From positions 1 to 64,000 of the forward strand of contig MWCI01000003.1 of the NCBI GenBank assembly GCA_002069965.1: DNA of 64,000 nt. The letters run 5' to 3'. The translations under genes were made by a program, and so were the position numbers. How positions within the stretch are numbered: the first letter of the stretch is position 1; each line of letters begins with the position of its first letter. This DNA is from Spirochaetes bacterium ADurb.Bin218 (GTDB lineage: Bacteria; Spirochaetota; UBA4802; UBA5550). This document shows positions 4,851-55,031 of this stretch, one piece after another. Under the pieces are notes generated by a model. That model had not been told where the DNA came from, ran no database searches, and was given only the letters and a program-made list of their open reading frames with translations.

Positions 4851-5759
4851 TTATGTGGTTAAAGTGTCTTTGATAATTGTTTCAATGCAATTTAATTTTT
4901 CTGTATGATTTGCATTTGTGTAATATTTTTTCTTTCCATCTCTGGGAGTTGTGTCCTTAAAATCATATTTAAATTCAGAAAGTATAAATTCATATTTCCA
5001 TACTTCATCCCGCACATCTGTTTGATATTCAATTAAATTTTCATCAATCAATTTTAGATTATGCAGGGCTTTAAAGGTTAATATAATATTTTCCAGTTTC
5101 CCGGTCGGTTTTCCCTTCCCTGAATATTTTAGAATTTTTCCGTTATTTAAAGCTGTATATATTTTATGTTTCTCTTCATCTGAAATTAACCATAAATTTC
5201 CGGGTTGTTTTTTGGTATTGCCCCCGGTGGTATTTAAACGTTTATATATTTGTGCAAGTTCAAATAATAAAAACATACTTCCATATCTATATTTTTTTGA
5301 GACTGTAAAAGTTAAATGACCTTCCCATTCAAAAAAAGTTTTTAATACTCCCTGTTCGTGAATATCGCTGTAAATATCTTCAAATGAACGATAAACAAAT
5401 TTACCGTTTGAAAGTGTTTTAATATTTGTTTCGACTTCTTTTTTTATTTCATCAATGGATTTATTGGGGTATTTTTCTTTTATACTTTCAAAGTAATATT
5501 TATGCCAAAATAAAATTTCATTATGGATATTATGAGCTAAATATATTGGAATATTATGTTTATCATTTTTAAAGCTGACATATTCCTGTAAATGCTGAAT
5601 TTGTTGTAATTCATTTTTTAAAACGGCCATTTCTTCTAAAACATCTTTTCTGAGTTTTTCGGCCTGCTCCGTTGTAATGTCCGGGATATTCTTAATTTGT
5701 TCAATGACGGGAAATTCTTTAAATCCGTTGTTTGAATCGATAGAAAATTTTGTTAGCAT
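4851..5759 (-). CDS. Orphan element protein of unknown function (302 aa)
   Basis: I do not recognise this protein. It is soluble, Lys- and Glu-rich, with a likely coiled coil at about residues 32-62 and a mixed alpha/beta second half that contains GKILKYSGKGKPTGK. There are no membrane segments and no clear catalytic motif. The start ATG 5759 follows GGAGGCGCGAG. It sits alone between the integrase and the excisionase-like gene, with its own terminator. In satellites and genomic islands that slot often holds cargo such as defence or interference genes; this is inference from place only. Confidence 0.65.
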   Translation of the reverse strand: MLTKFSIDSNNGFKEFPVIEQIKNIPDITTEQAEKLRKDVLEEMAVLKNELQQIQHLQEYVSFKNDKHNIPIYLAHNIHNEILFWHKYYFESIKEKYPNKSIDEIKKEVETNIKTLSNGKFVYRSFEDIYSDIHEQGVLKTFFEWEGHLTFTVSKKYRYGSMFLLFELAQIYKRLNTTGGNTKKQPGNLWLISDEEKHKIYTALNNGKILKYSGKGKPTGKLENIILTFKALHNLKLIDENLIEYQTDVRDEVWKYEFILSEFKYDFKDTTPRDGKKKYYTNANHTEKLNCIETIIKDTLTT

Positions 5760-5903: not shown

Positions 5904-7040
5904 TTATTTAGCTTCATTAAAAAATTTTTCCTGCAATAATAAAATCGGTTTTTGGTCGTCAAGCATACTGTGGAAATAATGCTCTGTCATTTCGTCCCCG
6001 CCGTGTGACAATGTGTATTGAACTGTAAATTTATTTACTCCGTTGTTTGTTAAAAATGTATTCCAGAAGTGACGGTGTGAATGTGCTACAATCCTGCGGC
6101 GTTTGCGGTCTGCGGGTGTTATTCCGATTTCTTCAAGGGCATAATATAAATATTTCAGTATAACCTTTTTATCAATCGGTTTTCCCTCTGTCTTGTCTGA
6201 ATAGAATAAAAATGAGTCCGGGGTTTTATATGGGTTATTGTCATATAATTCTTGTAAAAGGATCTGGAGCGGGGGAGCTATTGCGATTACACGGGATTTT
6301 TTATTTTTTGTTGTTTTTGTTAATTCGAGTTTTTCAGTGTCCCATGTTTTATCAATTTCAATATATCCGGGGTGAATGTTTTTTAGCTGGATTCCCTGAG
6401 CTTCTCCGGCTCTCATGCCAGTGAAACACATGGTTAAATTTATCAGGTATGAAATGCGGTGCTTCCATTCAGTATAAAAGAAAAGCTGTTGAACTTCATC
6501 CGGTGTCAATATCCCCGGCCTTCTATCGTCCAGAGTGACTTTTATAATCTCCGGTACATACTGAATATATTTTAATTTTTTAGCCTGCTTCAATATTTCA
6601 CTTAAACAGGTTAATACATGGTTTACTGTTTGCGGTGCAAGCTTTAACTCATAAGATAAATGCTGTCTAAATAATTCGACCTGATTGTCATTAAGTGAGG
6701 TTAGGGGAGTATTTTTAAAATAGGTTATTATATATTTGTTGGTTAATCGCTGTTTTGTTTCAGTCCATTTCTGAGATATGCTTTTATTATCGAGTCTTTT
6801 CTTTCTGATATAAACGCCGTCCCAATCATAGAAATTTTCAGCAAAACTTTTTAATCTGATGTTTTCATTCTCTACAACGTCCCCGGCTTTCAGGTAATCC
6901 CGCGCCCATTTTTCCGCGCGGCTCTTTGCAGTCTCCCCGGTGCTTTTTGGATTTGAACGGCTTCCATCCGGCAAGCGAAAACGAGCATACCAGATGTCAC
7001 CCCGTTTAATTAAAGTGAAGTCTTTAGCGGTTGCACTCAT
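5904..7040 (-). CDS. Tyrosine recombinase/phage-type integrase (378 aa)
   Basis: This protein would catalyse integration and excision of the element at the adjacent tRNA-Pro gene. The catalytic set is visible: Arg210 (FTGMRAGE), His320 and Arg323 (AHSHRH), His346 (LSHGGDE) and the nucleophile Tyr355 (TEHYFH). The N-terminal 65 residues form an arm-binding domain of the AP2-like type (IWYARFRLPDG) and residues 65-170 the SAM-like core-binding domain. The ATG at 7040 follows CGGGGGTTT. Upstream repeats TTTGGTAACA may be its arm sites. The gene reads away from the tRNA, the usual layout. Confidence 0.93.
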   Translation of the reverse strand: MSATAKDFTLIKRGDIWYARFRLPDGSRSNPKSTGETAKSRAEKWARDYLKAGDVVENENIRLKSFAENFYDWDGVYIRKKRLDNKSISQKWTETKQRLTNKYIITYFKNTPLTSLNDNQVELFRQHLSYELKLAPQTVNHVLTCLSEILKQAKKLKYIQYVPEIIKVTLDDRRPGILTPDEVQQLFFYTEWKHRISYLINLTMCFTGMRAGEAQGIQLKNIHPGYIEIDKTWDTEKLELTKTTKNKKSRVIAIAPPLQILLQELYDNNPYKTPDSFLFYSDKTEGKPIDKKVILKYLYYALEEIGITPADRKRRRIVAHSHRHFWNTFLTNNGVNKFTVQYTLSHGGDEMTEHYFHSMLDDQKPILLLQEKFFNEAK

Positions 7041-7374: not shown

Positions 7375-9180
7375 TTAAGAGTTGTTATTCTGGAAAAAAT
7401 CTTTTATTTTTTTGGCTTTCCTTTCTCCTATTCCATCAATTGTCATGAGCTCAGAAATTTCTGCTGTTGCAATATTTTCTATGGATTTGAACTTTTGTAA
7501 TAGAGCCATTTTGTTTTTGTGACTTAGATCTGGAATATTGTCAAGTTTGGAAGACGTTAAATCTGTATCTCTTAATTTTCTGTGATATGTGATTGCAAAC
7601 CTGTGAGACTCATCTCTTATTTGCTGTATAAGTTTTAAGGCATTGCTGTTTTCCTTTAACCTGAGGGGAGCCTTTTGGGGGTGAGTATATATCTCTTCAA
7701 ATTTTTTTGCTATTGAGATGATTTTCAGATCTAAGTTAAAATTCTCAGCAGCTTCAATTGCGCGGCTTAGTTGAGTTGGCCCTCCATCAATAACAATGAG
7801 ATCTGGAAAAGGGAGATTTTCATTTACAAGGTGCTGAATCCTTCTTGAAAGTGCTTCATGGATCATTCCTGGATCATTTGCGCCTTCATAGCCTCTGATT
7901 TTAAATCTTCGGTAAGATTTTTTATCTGGGAGACCAAGCCTGAATTGCACCATCGATGCCACCGGGAATTTTCCCTGTATATTGGAAATATCAAAGCAGA
8001 CTATAACCTCAGGGATAGCTTCAAGTCCCAGTATCTCTGCAAGCTCTTCCAGCGCAGCAATTGGCTCCAGGGAGGAATTTCTCTCTGCAGCAAGTATGTC
8101 AATGTTTTTTCTTATCATCCGCATGATGGAATGATCCTCTGAGCTTTTTGGATGGCCTATTATTATCTTTTTTTGTGAAATTTCACAGAGGTGTTGTTCT
8201 ATAAGTTTTTGGTCAGAGATTTTATTTTCTATCACTATTGTTTCTGGAATATCTTTTTCTTTATAATATTCTACAATAAATGATTGTATAATATCCTCAT
8301 CTGTGCTGTATTGAGCATTGTCAAAGAGAGAGAGTTTTCTTCCATTTAGAATCCCTCTTCTGAATTCAAAGACAATTACAATGGCTTCACTTCCAAAAAT
8401 CCCGCAGGATATAAAATCCACATTTGAAATTTTTTGAATATCTACTTTCTGAGTCATTGAGGTTTTTTGAATGTCGAATATAATATCCCTTATGGCTGCT
8501 GCTTTTTCGTATTCAAAATTTTTTGAATAGTCAGACATTTTTTTATTAAGACGCTCAACTACAGGTTCTGTATTGCCTTCCAGAAATTCAATGGCATTGT
8601 CCACAAGGGATCTGTATTCATCTCTGGAGATTTTATTCTGGCAAACCCCGCAGCATTTTTTAATTTGATAGTTCAGGCATGGACGTTCACCTTTTTTTAG
8701 AGGAATTTCTCTGTTGCAGCGTTTTAGCTTAAAGATATTGTTTATCATATTGGCAGTATTCTTTGCTGCTCTTGCATCAGTAAATGGACCAAAAACCTTT
8801 TCTGTAGTTTTGTCTATGGTTCTTGTATATAAAACTCGTGGATAATCTTCGTTTATGGTGACTTTTATATAGGGGTAGCGCTTGTCATCTTTTAAACGTA
8901 TATTAAATTTAGGCTTATGCTTCTTTATGAGGTTGCTCTCAAGTATCAAAGCCTCTATCTCTGATTCTGTTACTATGTATTCAATTGAAGAGATATTTTT
9001 AACCAGAACTGATGTTTTTGGATCCTTGTCTTTATTGCTAAAATATGAAGAGACCCTTTTTCTTAGAGAATTAGCTTTCCCTATATAAATTATATTTCCA
9101 GAGTTATCCAGCATGATATACACACCTGGCTCATCTGGAAATCCTGAGATTATTTCTTTTAAATTAGATTCCTCTTTCAT
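7375..9180 (-). CDS. uvrC: UvrC, excinuclease ABC subunit C
   Basis: UvrC makes both incisions in nucleotide excision repair with UvrA and UvrB. The order is typical: GIY-YIG nuclease (GVYIMLDN and IIYIGKA, residues 18-40), a four-cysteine Fe-S region (CNREI...CLNYQIKKCCGVC, about 155-180), the UVR motif that binds UvrB (FEYEKAAAIRDII, about 220), the RNase H-like endonuclease C-terminal domain (CFDISNIQG and VIDGGPTQL), and a helix-hairpin-helix tail (IDGIGERKAKKI). The length of 601 is normal. The ATG at 9180 follows AAGGAAAA. It is monocistronic. Confidence 0.97.
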   Translation of the reverse strand: MKEESNLKEIISGFPDEPGVYIMLDNSGNIIYIGKANSLRKRVSSYFSNKDKDPKTSVLVKNISSIEYIVTESEIEALILESNLIKKHKPKFNIRLKDDKRYPYIKVTINEDYPRVLYTRTIDKTTEKVFGPFTDARAAKNTANMINNIFKLKRCNREIPLKKGERPCLNYQIKKCCGVCQNKISRDEYRSLVDNAIEFLEGNTEPVVERLNKKMSDYSKNFEYEKAAAIRDIIFDIQKTSMTQKVDIQKISNVDFISCGIFGSEAIVIVFEFRRGILNGRKLSLFDNAQYSTDEDIIQSFIVEYYKEKDIPETIVIENKISDQKLIEQHLCEISQKKIIIGHPKSSEDHSIMRMIRKNIDILAAERNSSLEPIAALEELAEILGLEAIPEVIVCFDISNIQGKFPVASMVQFRLGLPDKKSYRRFKIRGYEGANDPGMIHEALSRRIQHLVNENLPFPDLIVIDGGPTQLSRAIEAAENFNLDLKIISIAKKFEEIYTHPQKAPLRLKENSNALKLIQQIRDESHRFAITYHRKLRDTDLTSSKLDNIPDLSHKNKMALLQKFKSIENIATAEISELMTIDGIGERKAKKIKDFFQNNNS

Positions 9181-9252
9181 AATTTTTCCTTAAATTTTAA
9201 GTTATTTTAGTTGCTTTTTATTGTAAAGTTATTATTTTTAATTTAAATTTTT

Positions 9253-9272
9253 AGCCCATTTGGGCTTTTTTT
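9253..9272 (+). terminator. Hairpin plus T tract in the uvrC/phosphatase divergent gap
   Basis: The arms agccca and tgggct (9253-9258 and 9261-9266) with a two-base loop are followed by seven T residues on the plus strand. No plus-strand gene lies just upstream, so it may attenuate a longer leader or block antisense transcription from uvrC. Confidence 0.45.
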
Positions 9273-9333
9273 GCTTGACTTTTTTGACCGTAAAAAATGT
9301 AATTTTTTAAGGTCTTTAGTATTTTTGGGCTAC

Positions 9334-9396
9334 TTGACAGGATAGGTAAATTAACTATTTTCTACCCGGGTAAAGTGGTTTTGCTTCTAAGCAAAA
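9334..9396 (+). promoter_or_regulatory. Promoter and palindromes upstream of the SpoIIE-type phosphatase
   Basis: A consensus -35 TTGACA (9334-9339) is followed after 16 bases by TATTTT (9356-9361). Just downstream are the perfect palindrome tacccgggta (9363-9372) and an eight-pair hairpin TTTTGCTT/AAGCAAAA (9379-9396), directly before the ribosome site AGAGGAG. The placement fits an operator and a leader hairpin controlling the phosphatase. Confidence 0.5.
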
Positions 9397-9409
9397 GAGG
9401 AGTTTAGCC

Positions 9410-10813
9410 ATGAATAGCATAAGTGCCTCGGGGAAAAATTTTCTGCTTCGATACGTTGACCCCTCTATGATTTTTTTGGTAAAAAGAGGTCAACAACTGG
9501 TCTTTGTTGGTTATATGTTCATCATAGCAGAGACTTTTGTGGCAATAAGACTTGGACTCACTCAAATCAAGGTGGAGCAAATAGCCTTTCTCTCATTTTT
9601 CTCTATCTCTGTGTCACTTTTTCTTATATTATTTCTGGAATTTAAAAAGGTCTTGTTGCTATGGCATGAGTATTTTGTTTTTGCTGTAGATCTCATAGCT
9701 TATCTTGTGTTTTTTATATTGTGGTCATACTGGCTTGAGGATATGAGATTTCTTGGTCTTATTAGCTCACTCATTGCAATTGGCATCTGTCATTCTTATG
9801 CAAGCTTTGGTCAGTCTCTGAGCTTGTCTCTTTTGACTTTGCTTTCCTATGGAAGCCTCTCTTATGTTGCAATTGTCCTTAATGGTCAGAGTGGCTCCTT
9901 TGTGAGAGAACTATTTTTTGCATTCTGCCTGATACCTGCCTTTATACTTTGCGCAATTACTTCCAAGGCAGTGGACACTCACAAGAGAAGATTAAAAAAA
10001 GCAAGACAGGAGCTTGAAAGGAAAAATGAAGCTTTATTTGAACTCAATGAGACTCTGAAATTTGAACAGGCACTTACAGAGGCAGAGATGGAGCTTGCCC
10101 ATGACATCCAGTGTGCCCTTTTGCCATCAAAGGCCCCGGATGTAAGCGATTGGGATATTGCTTTTTATTCACGTCCAAAATCTTCAGTTTCTGGTGATTT
10201 CTATGATTTTTATAGCTCCAATGGAACTCTTGATGGTCTTGCGCTTTTTGATGTATCAGGCCATGGAGTAGCACCTGCACTTGTGACTATACTACTTAAG
10301 CCTTTGCTTTTTAAAAATTTTAATAAATTTAATGATAATCCTGTGAAGATTTTTGAACAGAGCAATAAAGAGGTTCTGGAAGATCTTGAAGATGTTAATA
10401 TATACATCACAGGGGTATTGCTTAAAATAAAAGGAGCTGAGGTTGAGTATTTGAATGCGGGCCATCCAGATATCCTTTACCTTAAAGACAATGGTAAGGT
10501 AGAAGCAATTATAGATGAGGATGATAGCTTCAAAGGCAGGCCTCTGGGAATAGGGGATGTTCTTGATTATTCATCTTTTACTTTTAATGTCAACAACAAT
10601 GAGATGCTTCTGCTTTATACTGATGGTCTTATAGAGAGTAGAAATAGTGGTGGAAAGCAATTTGGCAGCGAAAATTTGACTTTATCTTTTTCAAAGTGCT
10701 ATGGTATGTCTGCATCGGATTCCTTGAATTTTATTCTTGAGGAGTTTTATTCCTTTCTTGGAAATTCGCAGCCTATTGATGATATTACCGTGATAATTGC
10801 AAAAAAACTTTAG
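9410..10813 (+). CDS. Membrane-bound SpoIIE/PP2C-type serine phosphatase (467 aa)
   Basis: Residues 20-195 contain about six hydrophobic helices, followed by a coiled-coil linker (195-235) and a SpoIIE-type PP2C domain (about 235-467). Catalytic metal motifs are visible as SGDFYDFY, ALFDVSGHGVAPAL and LLLYTDGLIESRN. Such proteins dephosphorylate anti-anti-sigma factors (STAS domain), with the membrane part as sensor. A matching RsbW-like kinase is encoded at 44207-44803, so a partner-switching circuit is plausible, though no STAS protein lies in the window. The ATG at 9410 has AGAGGAG upstream. Confidence 0.9.
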   Translation: MNSISASGKNFLLRYVDPSMIFLVKRGQQLVFVGYMFIIAETFVAIRLGLTQIKVEQIAFLSFFSISVSLFLILFLEFKKVLLLWHEYFVFAVDLIAYLVFFILWSYWLEDMRFLGLISSLIAIGICHSYASFGQSLSLSLLTLLSYGSLSYVAIVLNGQSGSFVRELFFAFCLIPAFILCAITSKAVDTHKRRLKKARQELERKNEALFELNETLKFEQALTEAEMELAHDIQCALLPSKAPDVSDWDIAFYSRPKSSVSGDFYDFYSSNGTLDGLALFDVSGHGVAPALVTILLKPLLFKNFNKFNDNPVKIFEQSNKEVLEDLEDVNIYITGVLLKIKGAEVEYLNAGHPDILYLKDNGKVEAIIDEDDSFKGRPLGIGDVLDYSSFTFNVNNNEMLLLYTDGLIESRNSGGKQFGSENLTLSFSKCYGMSASDSLNFILEEFYSFLGNSQPIDDITVIIAKKL

Positions 10814-45507: not shown

Positions 45508-45750
45508 TTATTCTAAAAAGTAGATAGCCTGGCTCGGGCAATTGTCAACACAAAGTCCGCAGGAATTACATAAATTATAATTAAAAGTAATATGCTCAGG
45601 CTTACATGGAACAGGGAATTCAATGCAGTATTTTATACATTTTGCACATACTGTATTGAATGATATGGATATTGCATTCCTTGGGCAAATTGTTACACAC
45701 TTGCCGCATCCAGTGCATTTATTTATGTCATTGAAGGGGTATTTTGTCAT
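45508..45750 (-). CDS. Three-motif ferredoxin-type Fe-S protein (80 aa)
   Basis: Two full [4Fe-4S] motifs CTGCGKCVTICP (residues about 12-23) and CNSCGLCVDNCP (about 60-71) flank a middle segment with CAKCIKYC and a further Cys in PCKPEH. The layout is a bacterial dicluster ferredoxin with an insert holding extra cysteines. It follows the 97-residue gene by six bases and is a likely electron donor for the neighbouring Fe-S proteins. Confidence 0.92.
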   Translation of the reverse strand: MTKYPFNDINKCTGCGKCVTICPRNAISISFNTVCAKCIKYCIEFPVPCKPEHITFNYNLCNSCGLCVDNCPSQAIYFLE

Positions 45751-45756
45751 AGTCTT

Positions 45757-46050
45757 TTACCTTGTTTTAATTGTTTCAATGAGTTTAATTTTAGCATTGC
45801 CCTTTTGGTCTCTATAAATTATGCAATATCCTGGAATAATTCCTGCAAGCCTCTCATCAGAGGAACGCAATGCATTAAAGTTAGAATTTTCTAAAAAATT
45901 ACGCAGTAGCTCTAATTTTTCTCCCAGAACTTCACATTCCTTTTCATCATCACAGGTGAGCAATTTTTCTGTTAGTGATTTGAATTCATTTTTTGCAGAG
46001 GTCTCTATGCAATGATCTCCCGTGTATAAAGTGATTATAGTTTCGTCCAT
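45757..46050 (-). CDS. Hypothetical protein in the ORP-like cluster (97 aa)
   Basis: A small mixed protein with CDDEKEC in the middle and a C-terminal strand pair (GYCIIYRDQKGNAKIKLIE). I do not recognise the family. It is separated from the NifX gene upstream by 107 bases with two hairpins, and is followed at six bases by the ferredoxin gene, so the two form a sub-operon. Confidence 0.65.
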   Translation of the reverse strand: MDETIITLYTGDHCIETSAKNEFKSLTEKLLTCDDEKECEVLGEKLELLRNFLENSNFNALRSSDERLAGIIPGYCIIYRDQKGNAKIKLIETIKTR

Positions 46051-46157: not shown

Positions 46158-46496
46158 TTAGTGATCGCAAGTATTTGCACCTGTTACAAGAGAACCATCG
46201 AGAAATTTGTTTACAACATCAGAGGGTTCCAATGCTGGTGCCCCTGTAATAACCTCAACCCCTTTATCTTTAAAGAGACTTATGGCCCTTGCACCCATTC
46301 CACCAGCAAGAACGCATGTAACACCTTTTTCTGAGAGCCATCGAGGCAGTAATCCTGGCTCATGAGGTGGTGGAGTGATTGATGATTGGGATAGTATTTT
46401 TTTATTTTCTCTATCCACATCAAAAAGTATAAATTGCTCACAATGCCCAAAATGCATACAAAGCCTGTTATCGGCTACTGGAACAGCTATTTTCAT
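46158..46496 (-). CDS. NifX/NifB-type cofactor-binding protein 1 (112 aa)
   Basis: The dinitrogenase Fe-Mo cofactor fold (RNase H-like): MKIAVPVADNRLCMHFGHCE, VLAGGMGARAISLFKDKGVE and a C-terminal TGANTCDH tail. The internal CMHFGHC and the terminal Cys and His could bind a metal cluster. This family includes the ORP protein of Desulfovibrio. It overlaps the Mrp gene by four bases. Confidence 0.92.
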   Translation of the reverse strand: MKIAVPVADNRLCMHFGHCEQFILFDVDRENKKILSQSSITPPPHEPGLLPRWLSEKGVTCVLAGGMGARAISLFKDKGVEVITGAPALEPSDVVNKFLDGSLVTGANTCDH

Positions 46497-47359
46497 TTAT
46501 TGCCTCCGTTTATTATTTTTTCTACTATTTCATTAAATTTTTTTTGCGCCTCTGTTGCGTTTGAGGAAGAAGCGCTAAGATGAGGAAAGCCATTATCCCC
46601 ACTGTCAACAATTCTTGGTTCCAGAGGAATAGCTCCCAGAAAAGGAATTCCCATATCCTGTGCCATGGACTTTCCTCCTCCTGTTTTGAATATCTCTGTG
46701 AGATTACCACAGTGTGGGCAAATAAAGCCACTCATGTTTTCAACTACACCAATGATTGGCATATTTACCTGTCTGCAAAAGGTAACTGATTTTCTTACAT
46801 CTGCCAGTGCAACATCTTGAGGTGTTGTTACAATTACTGCACCATCTGGTTCAGGGATAAGCTGGCATACAGAGAGAGGCTCATCACCTGTTCCTGGAGG
46901 TGAGTCTACTATTAAGTAATCAAGGTCATCCCATAAAACGTCTGTTAAAAATTGTTTAATTACCCCATATTTAAGAGGTCCCCTCCATATAACAGCTTGA
47001 TCTTTGTCTGGCATTAAAAATCCAACAGACATCACCTTAAGATATTCATTGTAGATTATAGGCAATATCGTTTTATCTCCTGTGCCTGTTGCCATCATGC
47101 CTTCTATCCCCAGAAGTTTTGGAATGCTTGGACCATGGACGTCAATATCCAGAAGGCCTGTTTTGAACTTTTTTTCTGCAAGAGCAACCGCTAAATTTAC
47201 AGCTACAGTGCTTTTGCCAACACCTCCTTTGCCAGAAAGGACAACTATCTTGTGCTTAATTTTTGACATATTATGTTTGAGGAGCTCTTCTTCATTTGCT
47301 GCTTTCTGGTTAGTGTTTCCGTAAGAGCAAGATGATACTTTTGGATTGTTCTGTGTCAT
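46493..47359 (-). CDS. mrp: Mrp/NBP35-family Fe-S carrier ATPase (288 aa)
   Basis: Deviant Walker A VVLSGKGGVGKSTVAVN, the LDIDVHGPSIPKLLG switch, and the C-terminal CPHCGNLTEIF motif (CPHC) that bridges an Fe-S cluster. N-terminal Cys residues are present (SSCSYGN). It is the cluster-carrier ATPase of the ORP-like operon. Family members load Fe-S clusters on target proteins. Confidence 0.95.
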   Translation of the reverse strand: MTQNNPKVSSCSYGNTNQKAANEEELLKHNMSKIKHKIVVLSGKGGVGKSTVAVNLAVALAEKKFKTGLLDIDVHGPSIPKLLGIEGMMATGTGDKTILPIIYNEYLKVMSVGFLMPDKDQAVIWRGPLKYGVIKQFLTDVLWDDLDYLIVDSPPGTGDEPLSVCQLIPEPDGAVIVTTPQDVALADVRKSVTFCRQVNMPIIGVVENMSGFICPHCGNLTEIFKTGGGKSMAQDMGIPFLGAIPLEPRIVDSGDNGFPHLSASSSNATEAQKKFNEIVEKIINGGNK

Positions 47360-47387: not shown

Positions 47388-48257
47388 TTATATCTGCTTA
47401 AATACTTTTTCCCATAATTCAATGATAGCATTTGCTGCCTGAGAGTCTTTCAGCTCAATTACAGCTTTGCCCATTATCTGCGCCTCTGTAACTGCTTTAT
47501 CGTAAGGTATTTGTCCAAGAAAATGGAGTTCATTTTCTTCACAAAAATTTTTTATTTCCTGAGTCTTTTCCATGTTTATATCGTATTTGTTAACGCAGAG
47601 TCCACATTTTACTCTGAAGTGTTGAGCCAGATTAAAAACACGCTTCAAATCGTGCAGGCCAGATACCGTTGGTTCTGTTACAATCAAAAGGAATGTTGCT
47701 CCAGTAATTGATGCTATTACAGGACAGCCTATGCCTGGTGAGCCATCTGTGATTATTAGCTGAAGACCTTTTTCTGTTGCTATTTCCCTGGCTTTTTTTC
47801 TAATCAAAGTAACTAATTTGCCTGAATTTCCTTCTGCTATGTTTAGCTTAGCATGAACAAAGGGACCGTATTCAGTCTCAGATATAAAATATTTTCCTGA
47901 TTCATGATCAACCATTTCTATTGCCTGCTCCGGGCAAAATTCACTGCACAGAGCGCAACCCTCACAGAATGTTTTTTCAATATAAAATTGATTATCCTTT
48001 TGTTCTATTGCATCAAATCTGCACAGACTTTTACATTTACCACAGCCTGAGCACAGCTTATTGTTTATATATCCTTTTTTGCCATCGCTAAAGGATTCTT
48101 CTTTTAATATTCTATGATTTAAAACCAGATGAAGATCTGCTGCGTCAACATCGCAATCTGTTATAACCTTGCTTTGCGCAAGTCTTGCGAAGGAGGCAGT
48201 CAAACTTGTTTTTCCTGTGCCACCTTTACCACTTACTATTACCAATTCTTTGATCAT
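47388..48257 (-). CDS. MinD-superfamily ATPase with inserted ferredoxin domain, copy 1 (289 aa)
   Basis: A deviant Walker A (VVIVSGKGGTGKTSLT region near residue 6) is followed by a 2x[4Fe-4S] ferredoxin insert (CSGCGKCKSLCRF, CEGCALCSEFCPEQAI at about 65-115) and the rest of the MinD fold (ITDGSPGIGCPV). This is the paired ATPase type of ORP clusters. It starts by four-base overlap with the second copy. Confidence 0.94.
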   Translation of the reverse strand: MIKELVIVSGKGGTGKTSLTASFARLAQSKVITDCDVDAADLHLVLNHRILKEESFSDGKKGYINNKLCSGCGKCKSLCRFDAIEQKDNQFYIEKTFCEGCALCSEFCPEQAIEMVDHESGKYFISETEYGPFVHAKLNIAEGNSGKLVTLIRKKAREIATEKGLQLIITDGSPGIGCPVIASITGATFLLIVTEPTVSGLHDLKRVFNLAQHFRVKCGLCVNKYDINMEKTQEIKNFCEENELHFLGQIPYDKAVTEAQIMGKAVIELKDSQAANAIIELWEKVFKQI

Positions 48258-49111
48258 GAATTATAGATTCTCCTGAAATTTTTTATGTGGTTAATTATTT
48301 CTTTGAACTGAGCGTTATATTTTTCTTTCACAACAGATATAAATTCACCTTTTGAGTAGTTTTCTGCAATTTCTCTATCCTCCGGGATTGCTCCAATTAT
48401 GGGAATATTCACTTGCTTGCAAAGGTCTTTTATGAGATAATCGCTTTTTGAGGATTTATTTATCACAACGGCAGATGGAATCTTAAGAGCTCTGGCCATT
48501 TCAATAGCCAGAGATAAATCGTTTAGCCCAAAAAGAGTAGGCTCTGTGACAAGGATAAGGAAATTTGCCTCCCTGACAGATTCTATAACAGGGCAGGAGG
48601 TTCCTGGAGGGGAATCTATTATTCTAATATCAGCATCAATAAAGTTTTCTTTTACCTGACGTATTACAGGGGGGGACATAGCCTCTCCTATATTAAGTTT
48701 TCCTCCAGCAAAAAATAGATTATCCTTTTGAGAGATTTCTATTTTAGCAGTCTCTCTTGCTATTTCTTTAATGGCCTTTTCGGGGCATATAAGAGTGCAT
48801 CCCCCACAGGAATGGCACATCTCAGGGAAAAAGAGAGGCTTGCCCTTTACTAAAACTATTGCACTGAATTGACAAATCCTTTCGCATTCTCCACATGCAG
48901 AACATAGAGATTTGTCAATATAGGGAACCATAACATTACAGGATTTTTCTTCTTGAATCTTTAAATTTAAAAATAGATTTACATTTGGCTCTTCAACGTC
49001 GCAGTCAAGAATTGCCACTTTGAGATTTTTTTCTTTAAAAAAATAGGCCAGAGAAAGAGCAATGGTTGTTTTCCCTGTGCCACCTTTACCGCTTGCTACT
49101 GCTATTTGCAC
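48254..49111 (-). CDS. MinD-superfamily ATPase with inserted ferredoxin domain, copy 2 (285 aa)
   Basis: Same architecture as the next gene: MQIAVASGKGGTGKTT at the start, DCDVEEPN switch, ferredoxin insert (CSACGECERICQF, CHSCGGCTLICPEKAI at about 66-112), then IIDSPPGTSCPVI. The two copies probably form a heterodimer, as known for the ORP complex. It overlaps the radical SAM gene by 26 bases at its start. Confidence 0.94.
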   Translation of the reverse strand: MQIAVASGKGGTGKTTIALSLAYFFKEKNLKVAILDCDVEEPNVNLFLNLKIQEEKSCNVMVPYIDKSLCSACGECERICQFSAIVLVKGKPLFFPEMCHSCGGCTLICPEKAIKEIARETAKIEISQKDNLFFAGGKLNIGEAMSPPVIRQVKENFIDADIRIIDSPPGTSCPVIESVREANFLILVTEPTLFGLNDLSLAIEMARALKIPSAVVINKSSKSDYLIKDLCKQVNIPIIGAIPEDREIAENYSKGEFISVVKEKYNAQFKEIINHIKNFRRIYNS

Positions 49112-50243
49112 TTGTTAACTCCTTGATTATTCCAAGATCGTACATCTTTTTACATACCATGCAACCTCTGTATGCAACAGAGAGCTTTGTCTCCTTTGAA
49201 TAGAGATAGCTCAGCTTATCCCTGCACTCAGATGAGAGCTCTTCTTTATGTTCATCAACAGCGCTTAAAATTCCCTCAGCTCTTATACATTTTAATACAT
49301 CATAATTTTCGATAAAATCAGAGATGGTTCCTTCTCTCATTTCTCCAACGTTACAGAGAGTAAATTCTGGATCATCTTTAAAGGGTAGGCAATAGTGCCA
49401 CCTATCATCAATAAATGGACTATCTCCACAGTGAGAGTAAAGTGAAAGCAGATCAATCAGTGAAGAGTTAGGGAATGTGTCAAAATCCCTTTCAGAAATC
49501 TTTAGCTTCTGGATAACATCATTTTTAAAGTGAGGCAAAAATGATCCAAGGCTCTCTTTATCATTCCCATAAAGAGAAAGGGAAGGGCATATATCCTCAA
49601 ATTCTTCACCATCACCAAGAGGAGCAAGGGGAACTACTCTCTGTAAAACATTGGGATATATTTTTTTTAAGATATCACTTGTATTGTCATCAACACCTAT
49701 AGTTACAAGTATCACTGGAATGATTTTCATCTTGGGTTCTTTACTTACAGTTATGAGATTATCCAGAGCAATATATCCATTGTCAGAGAGATTTTCCTGA
49801 TACTGAGAAATACTTATCCCCACTATTAAAGGTTTTTCTATCTGAGATGATATTTTTTTAAAGAAATCTCTGGTGAAGCTTAGATCCTCAAAAACCTTAC
49901 CATTTGTTGGCATAGATACTGTTTCTATTATATTCAATTTGAAAAGATTGATTATGGCATCGGTTATATCCATTTCATTATCTTTCCAAATGGTGGGCTC
50001 TCCCCCTGTTACAAACTGATATTTGATTAAGTTGCTTTCACTTAAGCGTTGTAAATCAATCAGGTAACTTTTAAAACATTCATAACTCATCTTATAGTGA
50101 TAGCTATTGGCTTCCCTGAGGCAGCCTTTGCATTGCTTATTACAAGTATTTGTTATTTGCAATGCTGGATATAATGTTGTCCAGGGTTTTGTGTTTCTTT
50201 TGCCCTTTATTACCTGGGCGTAGTTATAAAGTCTCTTTAACAC
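49086..50243 (-). CDS. Radical SAM protein with extra C-terminal cysteines, in the ORP-like cluster (385 aa)
   Basis: The radical SAM motif CNKQCKGC lies near residue 34, with TGGEPTIW as the glycine-rich loop. The C-terminal third has further cysteines: HCGDSPF, HYCLPF, TLCNVGE, and GCMVCKKMYDLG, which could ligate auxiliary clusters as in SPASM-type enzymes. It is followed with overlap by the MinD pair. Its place among cofactor-type proteins suggests a step in metal-cofactor or peptide modification, which is inference. Start ATG 50243 has only a modest ribosome site. Confidence 0.85.
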   Translation of the reverse strand: MLKRLYNYAQVIKGKRNTKPWTTLYPALQITNTCNKQCKGCLREANSYHYKMSYECFKSYLIDLQRLSESNLIKYQFVTGGEPTIWKDNEMDITDAIINLFKLNIIETVSMPTNGKVFEDLSFTRDFFKKISSQIEKPLIVGISISQYQENLSDNGYIALDNLITVSKEPKMKIIPVILVTIGVDDNTSDILKKIYPNVLQRVVPLAPLGDGEEFEDICPSLSLYGNDKESLGSFLPHFKNDVIQKLKISERDFDTFPNSSLIDLLSLYSHCGDSPFIDDRWHYCLPFKDDPEFTLCNVGEMREGTISDFIENYDVLKCIRAEGILSAVDEHKEELSSECRDKLSYLYSKETKLSVAYRGCMVCKKMYDLGIIKELTSANSSSKR

Positions 50244-50316: not shown

Positions 50317-51150
50317 TTAAAATTCAAAAATACGTCCAACAGAGGCATCGCTAAATTTTTCACCAAAGATATTTGCAAGTCTATGGGCAATGCGCAGACC
50401 AGTGCAATGGGACACTGCAATTTTCTGGACATTATATTTTTTTAGCGATCTTAGGGTTTTTTCCACATAGTCCTCTGGAGCACTATCAAGGTGAGTGCCA
50501 CCTATTACAGCAAAGAATTCACTGTGATTGCTTTTTGAACTGAGCTCATCAAGTATTTCTACAATTCCAGAATGAGCACATCCAAGTAAAACAACTGGGC
50601 CAGAGCTTGTCTCCAGAAGAAGAGAAAGGTCATCAGAAAAAGGATCTGGTGCTATATCATCATTGTTTTTTCTCATCAAAAGCTTATCCCACGGTCTCCA
50701 TCCTTCACTGTGATGGATGTTGGAAATTGTAAACATTCCATCTGCAATTTTTTCAAAACCATCTGTCTCTATAAACTCTGCACCATTTTCTTCATATAGT
50801 GATTTATCATGGGGAAATCCAATAGCTCTTTCCATGCCATTGGGTAACTTTGCGCATTTGGTCAAAAATGCATCGGGATGAAGATATACAGGAAGAGTCT
50901 CTTTTCTTTCTTTGAGTATAGATAATAATCCTCCAGTGTGATCGTAGTGACCATGGCTCAGGATAACCCTTTTTATTGAATTTATGTCTTTCCCCAAAAG
51001 TTTTAGGTTGTGGACAACTCCAAGCCCCTGTCCTGTATCAAAAAGAGTATTTCCCTCTTCTCTTTCTATAAAAAACGAAAGCCCATGCTCCCCAATAACA
51101 GGGAATGGAATCTGGACGCTGTTTTCACATATAACAGTTATTTTGGTCAT
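50317..51150 (-). CDS. Metallo-beta-lactamase-fold hydrolase, COG1237-like (277 aa)
   Basis: The metal motif LSHGHYDHTGGL, an FDTGQG strand before it and a C-terminal SHCTG place it in the lactamase fold, close to the COG1237 type that acts on phosphorylated pterin-like compounds. The ATG at 51150 follows AAGGAGAT; an upstream frame start is less likely. COG1237 genes often sit next to NifX and Mrp genes. Confidence 0.88.
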   Translation of the reverse strand: MTKITVICENSVQIPFPVIGEHGLSFFIEREEGNTLFDTGQGLGVVHNLKLLGKDINSIKRVILSHGHYDHTGGLLSILKERKETLPVYLHPDAFLTKCAKLPNGMERAIGFPHDKSLYEENGAEFIETDGFEKIADGMFTISNIHHSEGWRPWDKLLMRKNNDDIAPDPFSDDLSLLLETSSGPVVLLGCAHSGIVEILDELSSKSNHSEFFAVIGGTHLDSAPEDYVEKTLRSLKKYNVQKIAVSHCTGLRIAHRLANIFGEKFSDASVGRIFEF

Positions 51151-51170
51151 AAATATCTCCTTCTGAAATT

Positions 51171-51530
51171 TCACCAGTGAGCTTCAACATTAGCATCTTC
51201 ACATTGAGTAAGCTTCCCCTCTATGAAGTCATTGATGGCCTCCTGAATTGTTTTGCTGTTAGATAGAAATATTTTAATTCCTGCAGCGGTTAAAGCGGCA
51301 AAGGCCTTTGGGCCAACATTTCCTGTTATCAAAATATCCGCACCTGAATCTATTATGTTTTTTGCAGATTGAATACCAGCGCCTTGAGATGAGTTTAGGT
51401 TTTGACTATTGTCTTTATATTCAAAGTTTTTGGTATCTGTGTCGTAGATAATAAATCCCTTTGCTCTGCCAAATCTACTATCCATTTGAGATTCAAGCCT
51501 TTTGTCTTCTGCAGTTATTGCAATTTTCAT
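51171..51530 (-). CDS. NifX/NifB-type cofactor-binding protein 2 (119 aa)
   Basis: The family fold is clear: MKIAITAEDKRLESQMDSRF, then GADILITGNVGPKAFAALTA and a tail with CEDANVEAHW. It lacks the His/Cys-rich loop of copy 1 but keeps a terminal Cys and His. It overlaps copy 3 by four bases. Confidence 0.92.
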   Translation of the reverse strand: MKIAITAEDKRLESQMDSRFGRAKGFIIYDTDTKNFEYKDNSQNLNSSQGAGIQSAKNIIDSGADILITGNVGPKAFAALTAAGIKIFLSNSKTIQEAINDFIEGKLTQCEDANVEAHW

Positions 51531-51949
51531 TTATTTATCTCCTTACTGGAATTTTTATTTAATGCAGAATTTTTTTCTCTGCAACAGTTTCGTCCCTTTG
51601 TTTGCATGGAGCATTTGTTGATTGATGCCCTACATGGATGTAATTTATTTTTAATGTAAAGATCTATAATCTCCTCAATGGCTCCGCTATTCCATGGGTA
51701 GTGTTTTATCCCAGAATCGATTATCATCTCTGATATAAATCTACTTACAGCACCGCTTATAAGGACAGTGACACCCATCTCTTTTAGTCTTGCAATTCGC
51801 AATGAGCAGCTTTCAAGATCGAGGTTTATGGTAATGCTTTGAGTGATGGAATTTTCGCTTATCTCAAATATGATAAAGCGTTTTGCCTCATCTAAAAGAG
51901 GGGATATTCGATCTTGAAATATTGGTATTGCAACTAATTCATTGTTCAT
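51527..51949 (-). CDS. NifX-like protein 3 with Cys-rich tail, first gene of the sigma-54 operon (140 aa)
   Basis: The N-terminus MNNELVAIPIFQDRISPLLD matches the NifX-family start, followed by GVTVLISGAVSRFISEMI. The C-terminal 40 residues carry five Cys (HPCR, NKCSMQ, GRNCCRE) and a basic Asn-rich end. No Shine-Dalgarno precedes the ATG, and the predicted transcript start is only about three bases upstream, so translation may be near-leaderless. Confidence 0.85.
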   Translation of the reverse strand: MNNELVAIPIFQDRISPLLDEAKRFIIFEISENSITQSITINLDLESCSLRIARLKEMGVTVLISGAVSRFISEMIIDSGIKHYPWNSGAIEEIIDLYIKNKLHPCRASINKCSMQTKGRNCCREKNSALNKNSSKEINK

Positions 51950-51962
51950 ATTTATTTATATA

Positions 51963-51978
51963 AGCAATATTTGTGCCA
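51963..51978 (-). promoter_or_regulatory. Sigma-54 promoter of the ORP-like operon
   Basis: On the minus strand the sequence is TGGCAC-AAATA-TTGCT, a perfect -24/-12 element (TGGCAC-N5-TTGC). The -12 C is at 51964, placing the start of transcription near 51952. Confidence 0.92.
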
Positions 51979-52239
51979 AATTTTTATTTAATTGCAAAAT
52001 AATTTTCTAAAATACTTTTTGCTTTAAAATAATAAAGCATATATGCTGCTTTTGAGGATTTAGTGAATATAAAGGATTTTTTGTTTGAAAATTTAAGGGA
52101 TAGGCAAAGATTTTAAGATATAAATAGAATCAATATTATTTTTTTATTCTTTTATAATGTTTAAAAATAAAACTTTTATTCATTGTCAATTGGAAGGATA
52201 TATTAATTTTTTGATTTTTCTATTTTTACGATGGTTTTA

Positions 52240-52254
52240 ATTGCAATTTGCAAT
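52240..52254. promoter_or_regulatory. Upstream activator site 1
   Basis: A 15-base palindrome ATTGCA-ATT-TGCAAT. It shares its arms with the site at 52271-52285 and lies about 275 bases upstream of the sigma-54 promoter, the expected range for an enhancer-binding protein. Confidence 0.8.
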
Positions 52255-52270
52255 ACTTGTTTTTTATTAT

Positions 52271-52285
52271 ATTGCATATTGCAAT
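52271..52285. promoter_or_regulatory. Upstream activator site 2
   Basis: A second palindrome ATTGCA-TAT-TGCAAT, 31 bases centre to centre from site 1 (about three helical turns), directly adjacent to the stop codon of the activator gene. The rest of 51979-52239 is AT-rich with no gene and one lone ATTGCA half-site at 51991. Confidence 0.8.
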
Positions 52286-52287
52286 AG

Positions 52288-53592
52288 TTATTCCATGTTG
52301 TATTTTTTCATTTTTCGCCATAGTGTTGATGAATTTATTCCAAGGGCTTGAGCTGTCTTTAATTTGTTGCCATTAAATTTACTAAGAGCCTTTGCTATAT
52401 ATATTTTTTCCATCTCCTCAAGGTTTTCTGAACCAGTGAGTGTATCTTCTATTGCTCTGAGATATTGAGGAAGATGTTTTGTGTTTATATAAGCCTCACG
52501 ACATAGGACAAAGGCATGTTCAATAATATTTTCCAGTTCCCTTACGTTTCCAGGAAAGTTATAGTTCATAAGGATATTCATGACCTCATCAGTGACTCCT
52601 TCTATATTTTTCCCTTTTATATAGTTAAATTTTTTTATAAAGTGAGATATAAGCAAAGGAATATCCTCTCTTCTTGCAGAAAGGGGCGGTAGCTTTATAT
52701 TGATTACATTTAATCTGTAGAAGAGATCCTCTCGAAAGAGTCCTTTTTTTACTTCATCTGAAAGATTTTTGTTTGTTGCAGCAATTATTCTCACATTTGA
52801 TTTTACTGGATTTAGTCCTCCCAGTGGTTCATACTCTCTTTCCTGGATAAAACGAAGCAACTTTGCCTGGATAGCAGGCGAGATCTCTCCTATTTCGTCA
52901 AGAAACAGTGTTCCTTTTTCTGCCAGAGCTATTTTGCCCAATTTATCTTTTTTGGCATCAGTAAAAGCTCCAGACTTATAACCAAAGAGTTCAGACTCAA
53001 GCAAATTGTCAGGCACAGCTGCACAGTTTATAGCAACGAGAGGTCTGGATTTTCTTCCACTAAGATTGTGAATGGCCCGTGCTATAAGTTCTTTCCCTGT
53101 GCCACTTGCTCCTTCTATTAAAACAGTGCTGTCACTTACAGCAATATCTGGCAGTATTGAAAAGAGCTCTTTAAATTCCTTGCTTTTGCTTATGATGTCA
53201 TTAAAGCTATAGTTTGATTCTATTTCCTTTCTTAGATGCTCAATTTCAGATATATCTCGGAATGTCTCGACCCCGCCAATGATTTCTCCAGATTCATTTT
53301 TTAGCAGTGCAGTGCTTATATTTATTGGTATTATCTCACCAATGGAATTTACAATGTAGACAGTTTTGTTAACAATATTTCTTCCAGTGTTTATAGTTTC
53401 TCTAAGAGCACAGGAGTGCTCACAAATACTTGCATGGAAAACTTCAAAGCATAGCTTTCCGACAGCCTCTTGGGGGCTAATCTTTAATATATCAGCTGCA
53501 GCCTTATTTATGTAGGTAATTTTAAAGTCCAGATTAATAGTAAATACGCCATCAGCAATGCTGTCCAGTATGATCTCTTGATTGCTTAACAT
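52288..53592 (-). CDS. PAS-AAA-Fis sigma-54-dependent activator (434 aa)
   Basis: Residues 1-120 are a PAS domain with a Cys cluster (CFEVFHASICEHSCAL), a possible redox or metal sensor. The AAA+ domain has Walker A EGASGTGKELIAR, the loop GAFTDA (a variant of GAFTGA) and Walker B TLFLDEIGE. The last 45 residues are a Fis-type helix-turn-helix (FNGNKLKTAQALGINSSTLW). It starts three bases after the RelA-TPR stop, so the two are coupled. It probably activates the divergent-in-function but same-strand ORP operon ahead through the two palindromes. Confidence 0.95.
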   Translation of the reverse strand: MLSNQEIILDSIADGVFTINLDFKITYINKAAADILKISPQEAVGKLCFEVFHASICEHSCALRETINTGRNIVNKTVYIVNSIGEIIPINISTALLKNESGEIIGGVETFRDISEIEHLRKEIESNYSFNDIISKSKEFKELFSILPDIAVSDSTVLIEGASGTGKELIARAIHNLSGRKSRPLVAINCAAVPDNLLESELFGYKSGAFTDAKKDKLGKIALAEKGTLFLDEIGEISPAIQAKLLRFIQEREYEPLGGLNPVKSNVRIIAATNKNLSDEVKKGLFREDLFYRLNVINIKLPPLSARREDIPLLISHFIKKFNYIKGKNIEGVTDEVMNILMNYNFPGNVRELENIIEHAFVLCREAYINTKHLPQYLRAIEDTLTGSENLEEMEKIYIAKALSKFNGNKLKTAQALGINSSTLWRKMKKYNME

Positions 53593-53595
53593 TGA

Positions 53596-54921
53596 CTATT
53601 TCATCTGCTGGTTGAGAATAAATTGTTTAAATCTCTGAGCTTGCTTAAAATCGGGCTTGATGCTTATAGCTTTGTCGCAGTCATCCAGGGCATGCTGAAT
53701 ATCTCCAAGGTCGTAATAGGTGAGGGCTCTACCGTAAAAGGTGTCAGGCCATAGGGGGTTGAGTTCAAGAGATTTATTAAAATCACGGAGCGATTCGTCA
53801 TATCGTTTGAGCATTCTATAGGCAAGTCCCCTATTTGTATATACCCTTGTGTCCCTGGGTTCCATCTCAATTGCTTTTGAGAAATCTTCAATTGCCTTTT
53901 CATATTCAGAGAGGGTAAAGTATACAAGACCCCTGTGGTTATATATGTAGTGGTTTGGTGAAACCAGCAAGAGCTGTGTATAAAGTTCCAGAGCGTCTTT
54001 GAGTCTGTTTTCCAGATGAGCATTCATTGCCTCAACAAGGAGATCATTCAGGTCGTGTTTATTGTTTGAATTATTTTGAGGCAGAGAAAATTTTTCTATT
54101 TTAGTTTCAATAGGAGCAGCTTCCATCTTTGATTCAATTAGTGACGTAAGATCCCCACTTTGTTTCAGCTTTTCCATTTTTTCTGGTATTGTGGAGACCT
54201 TGTCCATTAGCTTTTTGTGTCTTTCCTGAATGTCTTTGTATCGTTTCCTTTGGTAGTCTCTAATTTCCTGAAATATGGTATCCCCAAGGGATAGAGTTGC
54301 ATTAACCGCAATCATCTTACGTCTGATAGTATCTTCAACCTTATCTATGCTGGTTTTGTATATTAGCTCATGTTCAACCTCAGCCCAGGCGTCCTGAAGA
54401 ATTGTCCTCAGTTGGATTTCAACTCTCATGCTGCTGTATTTATCTTTAAATTTCTTTGATACATCAGAGGGAATAGTTATTATTAGATGTATTGAGTCAT
54501 ATCCAAATTCTCTTATAGAAAGCTCTCTTGATTTGTATTTTGTTTCAATAACATTAAAGCTCTCTTTAATGCGTCTTTCCACGCAGGTAAGATCTTCCAG
54601 AAAGGGAACAACAACCCTCAGTCCAATAATATCGGTTATTGCATCAAAAGGCGATTCTATTGGAGCATTTTGACTTTTAAGCAATATCTTTCTGTAGAGA
54701 GCATCAAAGGTTTTGACTCTGCCTTTGATTTGAGCCTTACAGTCGCTGCCTATTAAAGCGTTTTCTGTTTTTTTTATGAGCAGTTCCAGTAATTTTTGTA
54801 AATTTTTGCTATTCTTTTCATAAAGAGATTGGATTTTGGATTTATTTTCAATCCAATAGTCAAGTCTATAATTCATAACATCAGCCATTGGTTGTTTTTT
54901 CGATCGAAACAATTTACTCAT
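53596..54921 (-). CDS. RelA/SpoT-type synthetase domain fused to TPR repeats (441 aa)
   Basis: Residues about 60-215 are a RelA/SpoT nucleotidyltransferase of the small alarmone synthetase type: ITDIIGLRVVV, FGYDSIHLII and VEIQLRTILQDAWAEVEHEL (catalytic Glu in the EIQ motif). No HD hydrolase, TGS or ACT domains are present. A helical linker leads to three to four TPR units (about 290-435), e.g. YNHRGLVYFTLSEYEKAIED. It likely makes (p)ppGpp or related alarmones under control of TPR partners. It is in one transcription unit with the activator gene. Confidence 0.9.
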   Translation of the reverse strand: MSKLFRSKKQPMADVMNYRLDYWIENKSKIQSLYEKNSKNLQKLLELLIKKTENALIGSDCKAQIKGRVKTFDALYRKILLKSQNAPIESPFDAITDIIGLRVVVPFLEDLTCVERRIKESFNVIETKYKSRELSIREFGYDSIHLIITIPSDVSKKFKDKYSSMRVEIQLRTILQDAWAEVEHELIYKTSIDKVEDTIRRKMIAVNATLSLGDTIFQEIRDYQRKRYKDIQERHKKLMDKVSTIPEKMEKLKQSGDLTSLIESKMEAAPIETKIEKFSLPQNNSNNKHDLNDLLVEAMNAHLENRLKDALELYTQLLLVSPNHYIYNHRGLVYFTLSEYEKAIEDFSKAIEMEPRDTRVYTNRGLAYRMLKRYDESLRDFNKSLELNPLWPDTFYGRALTYYDLGDIQHALDDCDKAISIKPDFKQAQRFKQFILNQQMK

Positions 54922-55031
54922 AGTATAATATAACAGAAAATTTTTTCAATATATTTTATTATTTTGGAAAAAAAAGACTATAAAAGTTACTAAAGTAAAA
55001 TTCATACCAGTATTTATTCCCTAACTTTTTT

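Follow-up and report, generated by a model that had tools for sequence, protein, structure and literature searches.

A putative sigma-54 control region of an orange protein operon in a spirochaete, with paired palindromic operators and a predicted leaderless first gene

The control region, its operon and its probable activator

The window, meaning the whole stretch of 64,000 nucleotides analysed here, contains between positions 51,963 and 52,285 a sigma-54 promoter and two palindromes beside the gene of an enhancer-binding protein, and the question is which genes this region controls, which protein reads the palindromes and where the resulting message begins. A sequence-only reading had proposed a perfect minus-strand TGGCAC-N5-TTGC promoter before a NifX-like gene, and this is confirmed by TGGCACAAATATTGC (51964–51978, minus strand, -24/-12), which has GG at -24 and GC at -12, is the only perfect match in the window and has an equivalent before the orp operon in relatives. 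Two ATTGCA-N3-TGCAAT palindromes had also been placed directly beside the activator gene. The outer palindrome, ATTGCATATTGCAAT (52271–52285, kept in relatives), indeed begins 2 bp past the stop codon of this gene, orpR (ORF 52288–53592), and the inner one, ATTGCAATTTGCAAT (52240–52254), has its centre 31 bp away; both are perfect and have no strand, and they are the only sites in the window with fewer than two mismatches. Measured from the -12 C of the promoter, their centres are 283 and 314 bp away, further than the 127–211 bp found for the inner site in most of the relatives' loci with a clear promoter.

When the 3.03 Mb genome was scanned for ATTGCA-N3-TGCAAT, as had been suggested, three perfect copies were found (~0.35 per genome expected by chance, estimated from base composition), two being this pair and the third (C50:15284) lying without a partner inside a stomatin/QmcA-like coding frame. 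Twenty of the 21 further copies with one mismatch were examined, and all were in open frames, with neither a partner at 31–33 bp nor a correctly placed sigma-54 promoter. The OrpR regulon in this genome appears to consist of one operon only. RpoN and HU/IHF-family proteins are encoded in the genome, and a possible IHF site, AATCAAAAAATTA (52204–52216, minus strand), agreeing with all specified positions of WATCARNNNNTTR, is situated between the operators and the promoter; one copy was found in 8% of shuffles and support at other loci was weak, so that this candidate is suggestive only.

Orange proteins (ORPs) carry a [S2MoS2CuS2MoS2] cluster, and the role of the ORP complex in Desulfovibrio vulgaris has been placed in cell division. 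Judged from its sequence, the whole region between 51,963 and 52,285 is the sigma-54 control region of an ORP operon in an anaerobe, with all genes on the minus strand. The first gene (51527–51949) encodes a NifX-like (Nitro_FeMo-Co) protein and lacks a Shine-Dalgarno sequence, while the second (51171–51530), with a strong Shine-Dalgarno sequence, encodes an Orp8-like orange protein matching D. gigas ORP (2wfb) with an E value of 1.7e-24 over 109 residues. They are followed by genes for a metallo-beta-lactamase-fold (MBL-fold) protein, named from its domain content (50317–51174), an inserted radical-SAM-like protein (49086–50243), which among the loci compared is present only in the genus of the window (also L036 and L254), and two MinD-like ATPases of Orp3/Orp4 type with two 4Fe-4S motifs each (48254–49111 and 47388–48257). 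The Mrp/NBP35 P-loop ATPase domain of MrpORP (46493–47359, NF041136 positions 1–251) and its Di-Nase domain (46158–46496, NF041136 positions 265–365, with CMHFGHCE near the start and CDH at the end) are encoded as genes of their own, and a small protein (45757–46050) likely stands near the operon end, which is likely formed by an 80-aa ferredoxin-like protein (45508–45750). The cluster was identified as orp because of the ORP match to 2wfb together with the two MinD-like ATPases, which match Orp3 and Orp4, and the Mrp ATPase and Di-Nase proteins, each matching one half of MrpORP.

A single-protein MrpORP as defined by NF041136 (cut-off 450 bits) is not encoded here, the two proteins scoring 398 and 134 bits. 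The ends of the split genes (46158–47359, minus strand) overlap by 4 bp, and across the order of the window MrpORP is split in some cases and fused or nearly fused in others. At the C-terminus of the NifX-like protein is a basic tail rich in Cys (CRASINKCSMQTKGRNCCREK, 51527–51600, minus strand), also found in the relative L036, which may be a metal or Fe-S site.

The protein encoded by orpR (52288–53592, minus strand), an enhancer-binding protein of the OrpR/DVU2106 type, consists of a PAS domain, an AAA+ sigma-54 activator domain with GAFTDA as a variant of the GAFTGA loop, and a Fis-type HTH; the gene adjoins the orp genes and the palindromes lie between it and the sigma-54 orp promoter. 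Three cysteines of the PAS domain (C48, C57 and C61) are invariant across 16 OrpR orthologues. Fievet in 2021 reportedly described that the PAS domain of OrpR senses redox state through an Fe-S cluster, with which these residues in the protein of the window would be consistent. Orthologues in equivalent loci of Desulfovibrionaceae show ~50% identity. Control of orp1/orp2 by sigma-54, DVU2106 and IHF in D. vulgaris Hildenborough is said to have been described by Fievet et al. in 2011. The activator had been taken for a new one, which was not borne out, since it is encoded in an orp cluster and control of orp1/orp2 in D. vulgaris Hildenborough by sigma-54, DVU2106 (OrpR), palindromic sites and IHF is already published (Fievet et al. 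2014, PMC3897727). PMC4641369 also lists DVU2106 with its GAFTDA motif, and the probable functional identity of the two proteins is based on domain make-up, gene neighbourhood and such published descriptions.

An ORP-based scan of genome contigs returned mostly a second type of ORP cluster with no activator nearby, and no OrpR-type neighbour was found in the regions examined of MrpORP-rich genomes of the phylum. The published D. vulgaris IHF sites had no match in 288 genomes of Desulfovibrionaceae. Directly upstream of orpR, separated by a few bp, is a RelA/SpoT-TPR gene where the sequence TTGAAA-N16-TATACT ends at the ATG, with no Shine-Dalgarno sequence (54921–54949, minus strand), and the orpR transcript may itself be leaderless from this -10 element touching the RelA/SpoT-TPR ATG.

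Operator pairs in relatives and the protein that probably reads them

Paired TTGCA-N3-TGCAA sites were found in 23 genomes of the order of the window, belonging to five families according to the family labels of the genomes, and were always 31–33 bp apart (31 bp in 2, 32 bp in 17 and 33 bp in 4); the 23 include L253, where the pair carries two mismatches. Wherever one perfect site was present, another with no more than one mismatch was found 31, 32 or 33 bp away. In 1.9 Mb of loci there were 17 pairs at no more than one mismatch and 21 at no more than two, a few being counted twice where loci overlap, against 0 expected in shuffles, and every one lay at an orp operon or next to an OrpR-like gene. 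When 15 loci were scored, a strong sigma-54 promoter came after the pair in 12, and a thirteenth (L054) has it at 9832, slightly beyond the range scanned. An exception within the order is L052, where orp operon and promoter are present but no pair is recognisable. Pair, spacing and promoter are thus kept in relatives, and the enhancer-driven sigma-54 switch with paired activator sites seen by the earlier reading is strongly supported by comparative genomics.

Several loci show related arrangements. A contig binned as Pirellulales (L129) has an OrpR of 60% identity, a perfect pair at 33 bp (5999–6044) and an orp operon, probably through horizontal transfer or misbinning. In Candidatus Desulfaltia (L200) two OrpR-like paralogues are likewise accompanied by such operator pairs (1381–1424 and 5589–5633), one of which precedes a magnesium-chelatase-like gene, and this locus suggests that OrpR-type switches exist beyond orp operons. 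In L036, of the same genus as the window, orpR and the orp operon are separated by a myo-inositol-phosphate-synthase-like gene that has a sigma-54 promoter of its own (9112–10488), and a similar promoter precedes such a gene on another contig of the window's genome (L209).

Of 285 genomes from the family to which Pseudodesulfovibrio pelocollis belongs, 86 have an OrpR orthologue. The Desulfovibrionaceae loci share with the window the layout of orpR, operators, sigma-54 promoter and first gene, here with a palindrome resembling GGCGAATAATTCGCC. Of 50 such loci, 35 have pairs of the GGCGAATAATTCGCC type (0.15 expected), with a modal spacing of 31–32 bp, usually ~68 bp from the promoter; the threshold was loose, allowing up to 6 mismatches over the two sites, and the shuffle control was low. 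TTGCA-N3-TGCAA was beside orpR in none of the 50 loci, and the Desulfovibrionaceae-type motif was absent from the loci of the window's order that were checked. The recognition helix of OrpR is mostly STLWRK where TTGCA-N3-TGCAA is found and mostly KDTLRR in the Desulfovibrionaceae examined. That helix and palindrome change in step is the strongest indirect evidence for a reading of the palindromes by OrpR itself.

The pair might instead bind another regulator, for instance of FNR/CRP, TetR or LysR type, with the neighbouring enhancer-binding protein acting elsewhere. Binding of OrpR to these sites is a prediction, and the pair can be kilobases away from orpR (L036 and L044). Still, the genome of the window contains no second such pair; in OrpR-bearing genomes the pair precedes the sigma-54 promoter of the orp operon, and it recurs beside the OrpR-like paralogues of Candidatus Desulfaltia, while the Desulfovibrionaceae OrpRs, with a different recognition helix, go with a different palindrome in the same layout, all of which makes another regulator improbable. 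The short distance of 2 bp from the orpR stop codon to the outer palindrome could also fit a transcription terminator or RNA hairpins ending orpR. This we regard as scarcely credible: a terminator scan made no call at the palindromes, their arms are only 6 bp, A+T-rich and joined by 3-nt loops with no T-run, and the spacing is fixed at 31–33 bp. In L036, L044, L253 and L254, moreover, the pair is found at the orp promoter even though orpR is kilobases off or on a different contig.

Operator sites for OrpR are accordingly the preferred reading of the palindromes, and there would then be two OrpR operator codes, ATTGCA-N3-TGCAAT here and GGCnAAT-N-ATTnGCC in Desulfovibrionaceae, sharing the rule of two sites 31–33 bp apart. 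With matching recognition helices and this shared spacing, the two codes should make the OrpR regulon predictable in uncultured anaerobes, and in the genome of D. vulgaris one would expect GGCnAATnATTnGCC pairs close to -131 and -88.

The predicted start of the first gene

In D. vulgaris the sigma-54 element lies 11–13 nt before the transcription start (PMC3897727). When this rule is applied to the -12 element of the window, the transcript is expected to start at ~51952, 12 nt after the -12 C, and with the ATG at 51949–51947 the predicted leader would be ~3 nt (51947–51952, minus strand). As the -12-to-start spacing varies by a base or two, the leader could be 0–5 nt, leaderless meaning here a 5' end within ~5 nt of the AUG. 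Such a start was absent from the sequence-only reading.

The distance from the -12 C to the ATG was compared in 19 loci with the NifX-like gene first and was 11 nt in one, 12 in two, 13 in 14 and 14 in two, which places the ATG at +1 to +4 with no Shine-Dalgarno sequence in all 19. The anti-Shine-Dalgarno pairing energy at this ATG is near zero in nearly all loci; among the 10 other operon genes scored, seven have values of -5.9 to -9.5, two are at about -4 and the MBL-fold gene is at -1.2. The two loci with the ORP gene first (L050 and L260) have a leader with a strong Shine-Dalgarno sequence, and in many Desulfovibrionaceae loci leaders of ~40–50 nt with GGAG were found, the few short values there probably reflecting wrong ORF calls. 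Ordinary leaders are also found at other sigma-54 genes in the lineage of the window.

A lineage-wide habit of leaderless sigma-54 genes was considered and rejected, most other ATGs 8–15 nt past a sigma-54-like site in relatives being in coding frames or not gene starts. Since several clear sigma-54 genes in addition have GGAG leaders, the feature seems special to the orp operons.

The mRNA of the NifX-like gene should accordingly be leaderless in the window and its relatives, unless the true transcription start is further upstream or another start codon is used. The start sites are deduced from the -12 element only and a genome usually has no more than a few leaderless mRNAs (PMC5243855), which gives this objection some weight. 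However, the promoter is strong and conserved, the distance to the ATG is 13 nt in 14 of the 19 loci, several loci offer no other usable start codon, and the N-terminus M-[KN]-N-E-[LI]-[IV]-A-[IVL]-P is kept in most (MNNELVAIP in the window), so that we consider a start with a leader rather unlikely. With the 12 nt before the ATG lying inside the promoter, no Shine-Dalgarno sequence could be transcribed. It is probable that in at least five families of one order an OrpR-activated sigma-54 promoter is fused to the start codon, giving a leaderless mRNA with the NifX-like protein as first product, while other sigma-54 genes and ORP-first operons keep their leaders. A conserved fusion of this kind is unusual and easily tested, and would mean that redox-controlled transcription is coupled to leaderless translation. 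In the literature searched, which covered few subscription papers, no report of a conserved sigma-54 leaderless start was found.

Proposed mechanism and relation to known systems

Taken as a whole, the region is very probably explained by OrpR, the two palindromes, the sigma-54 promoter and a leaderless NifX-like mRNA acting together. OrpR, encoded just upstream, would most likely sense the redox state through its cysteine-containing PAS domain and, as the conservation suggests, bind as two dimers to the two 15-bp palindromes on the same helix face, three turns apart. This paired binding would seed the AAA+ oligomer, and the 280–310 bp of very A+T-rich DNA would loop, perhaps bent by IHF, to allow OrpR to remodel the sigma-54 polymerase at TGGCAC-N5-TTGC. 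Transcription would then start ~12 nt after the -12 C, with the NifX-like mRNA beginning 0–4 nt before its AUG, and this message would be translated leaderless, whereas every later gene except that of the MBL-fold protein has its own Shine-Dalgarno sequence.

The Mrp/NBP35 and Di-Nase domains found in the orp cluster correspond to those of MrpORP, for which the motifs CXHFGHCE and CDH of the Di-Nase domain have been described (PMC6345978); the difference is that the window encodes them in two adjacent genes and the known system in one fused protein. The predicted start resembles the leaderless mRNAs of Campylobacter and Bradyrhizobium in having an AUG at or near the 5' end and no Shine-Dalgarno sequence, but in the accessible text of those papers these arise from -10 motifs of sigma-70 type and are poorly conserved between species (PMC3847290, PMC4842269), while the orp start belongs to a sigma-54 promoter in an arrangement kept across five families.

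The closest known system is orp1/orp2 of D. vulgaris, where a GAFTDA enhancer-binding protein (PMC4641369) is likewise the product of a gene adjoining the orp genes, the activator sites are palindromes upstream of a sigma-54 promoter and the targets are ORP, MinD-like Fe-S ATPases and Mrp. The D. vulgaris sites, at -131 and -88, flank IHF sites, and in the window they lie 283–314 bp from the -12 C across A+T-rich DNA; a Shine-Dalgarno sequence is described for D. vulgaris (PMC3897727, legend of Fig. S1), whereas the first gene of the operon in the window appears leaderless, and no second, divergent operon was seen immediately next to its orpR. Desulfovibrionaceae relatives have pairs of the GGCGAATAATTCGCC type and not the ATTGCA-N3-TGCAAT of the window, the D. 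vulgaris sites themselves being compared by description only. The type of switch is thus already known from Desulfovibrio, and compared with the D. vulgaris work, as far as its accessible text goes, the new elements are the operator sequence, the conserved pairing at three turns and the predicted leaderless start.
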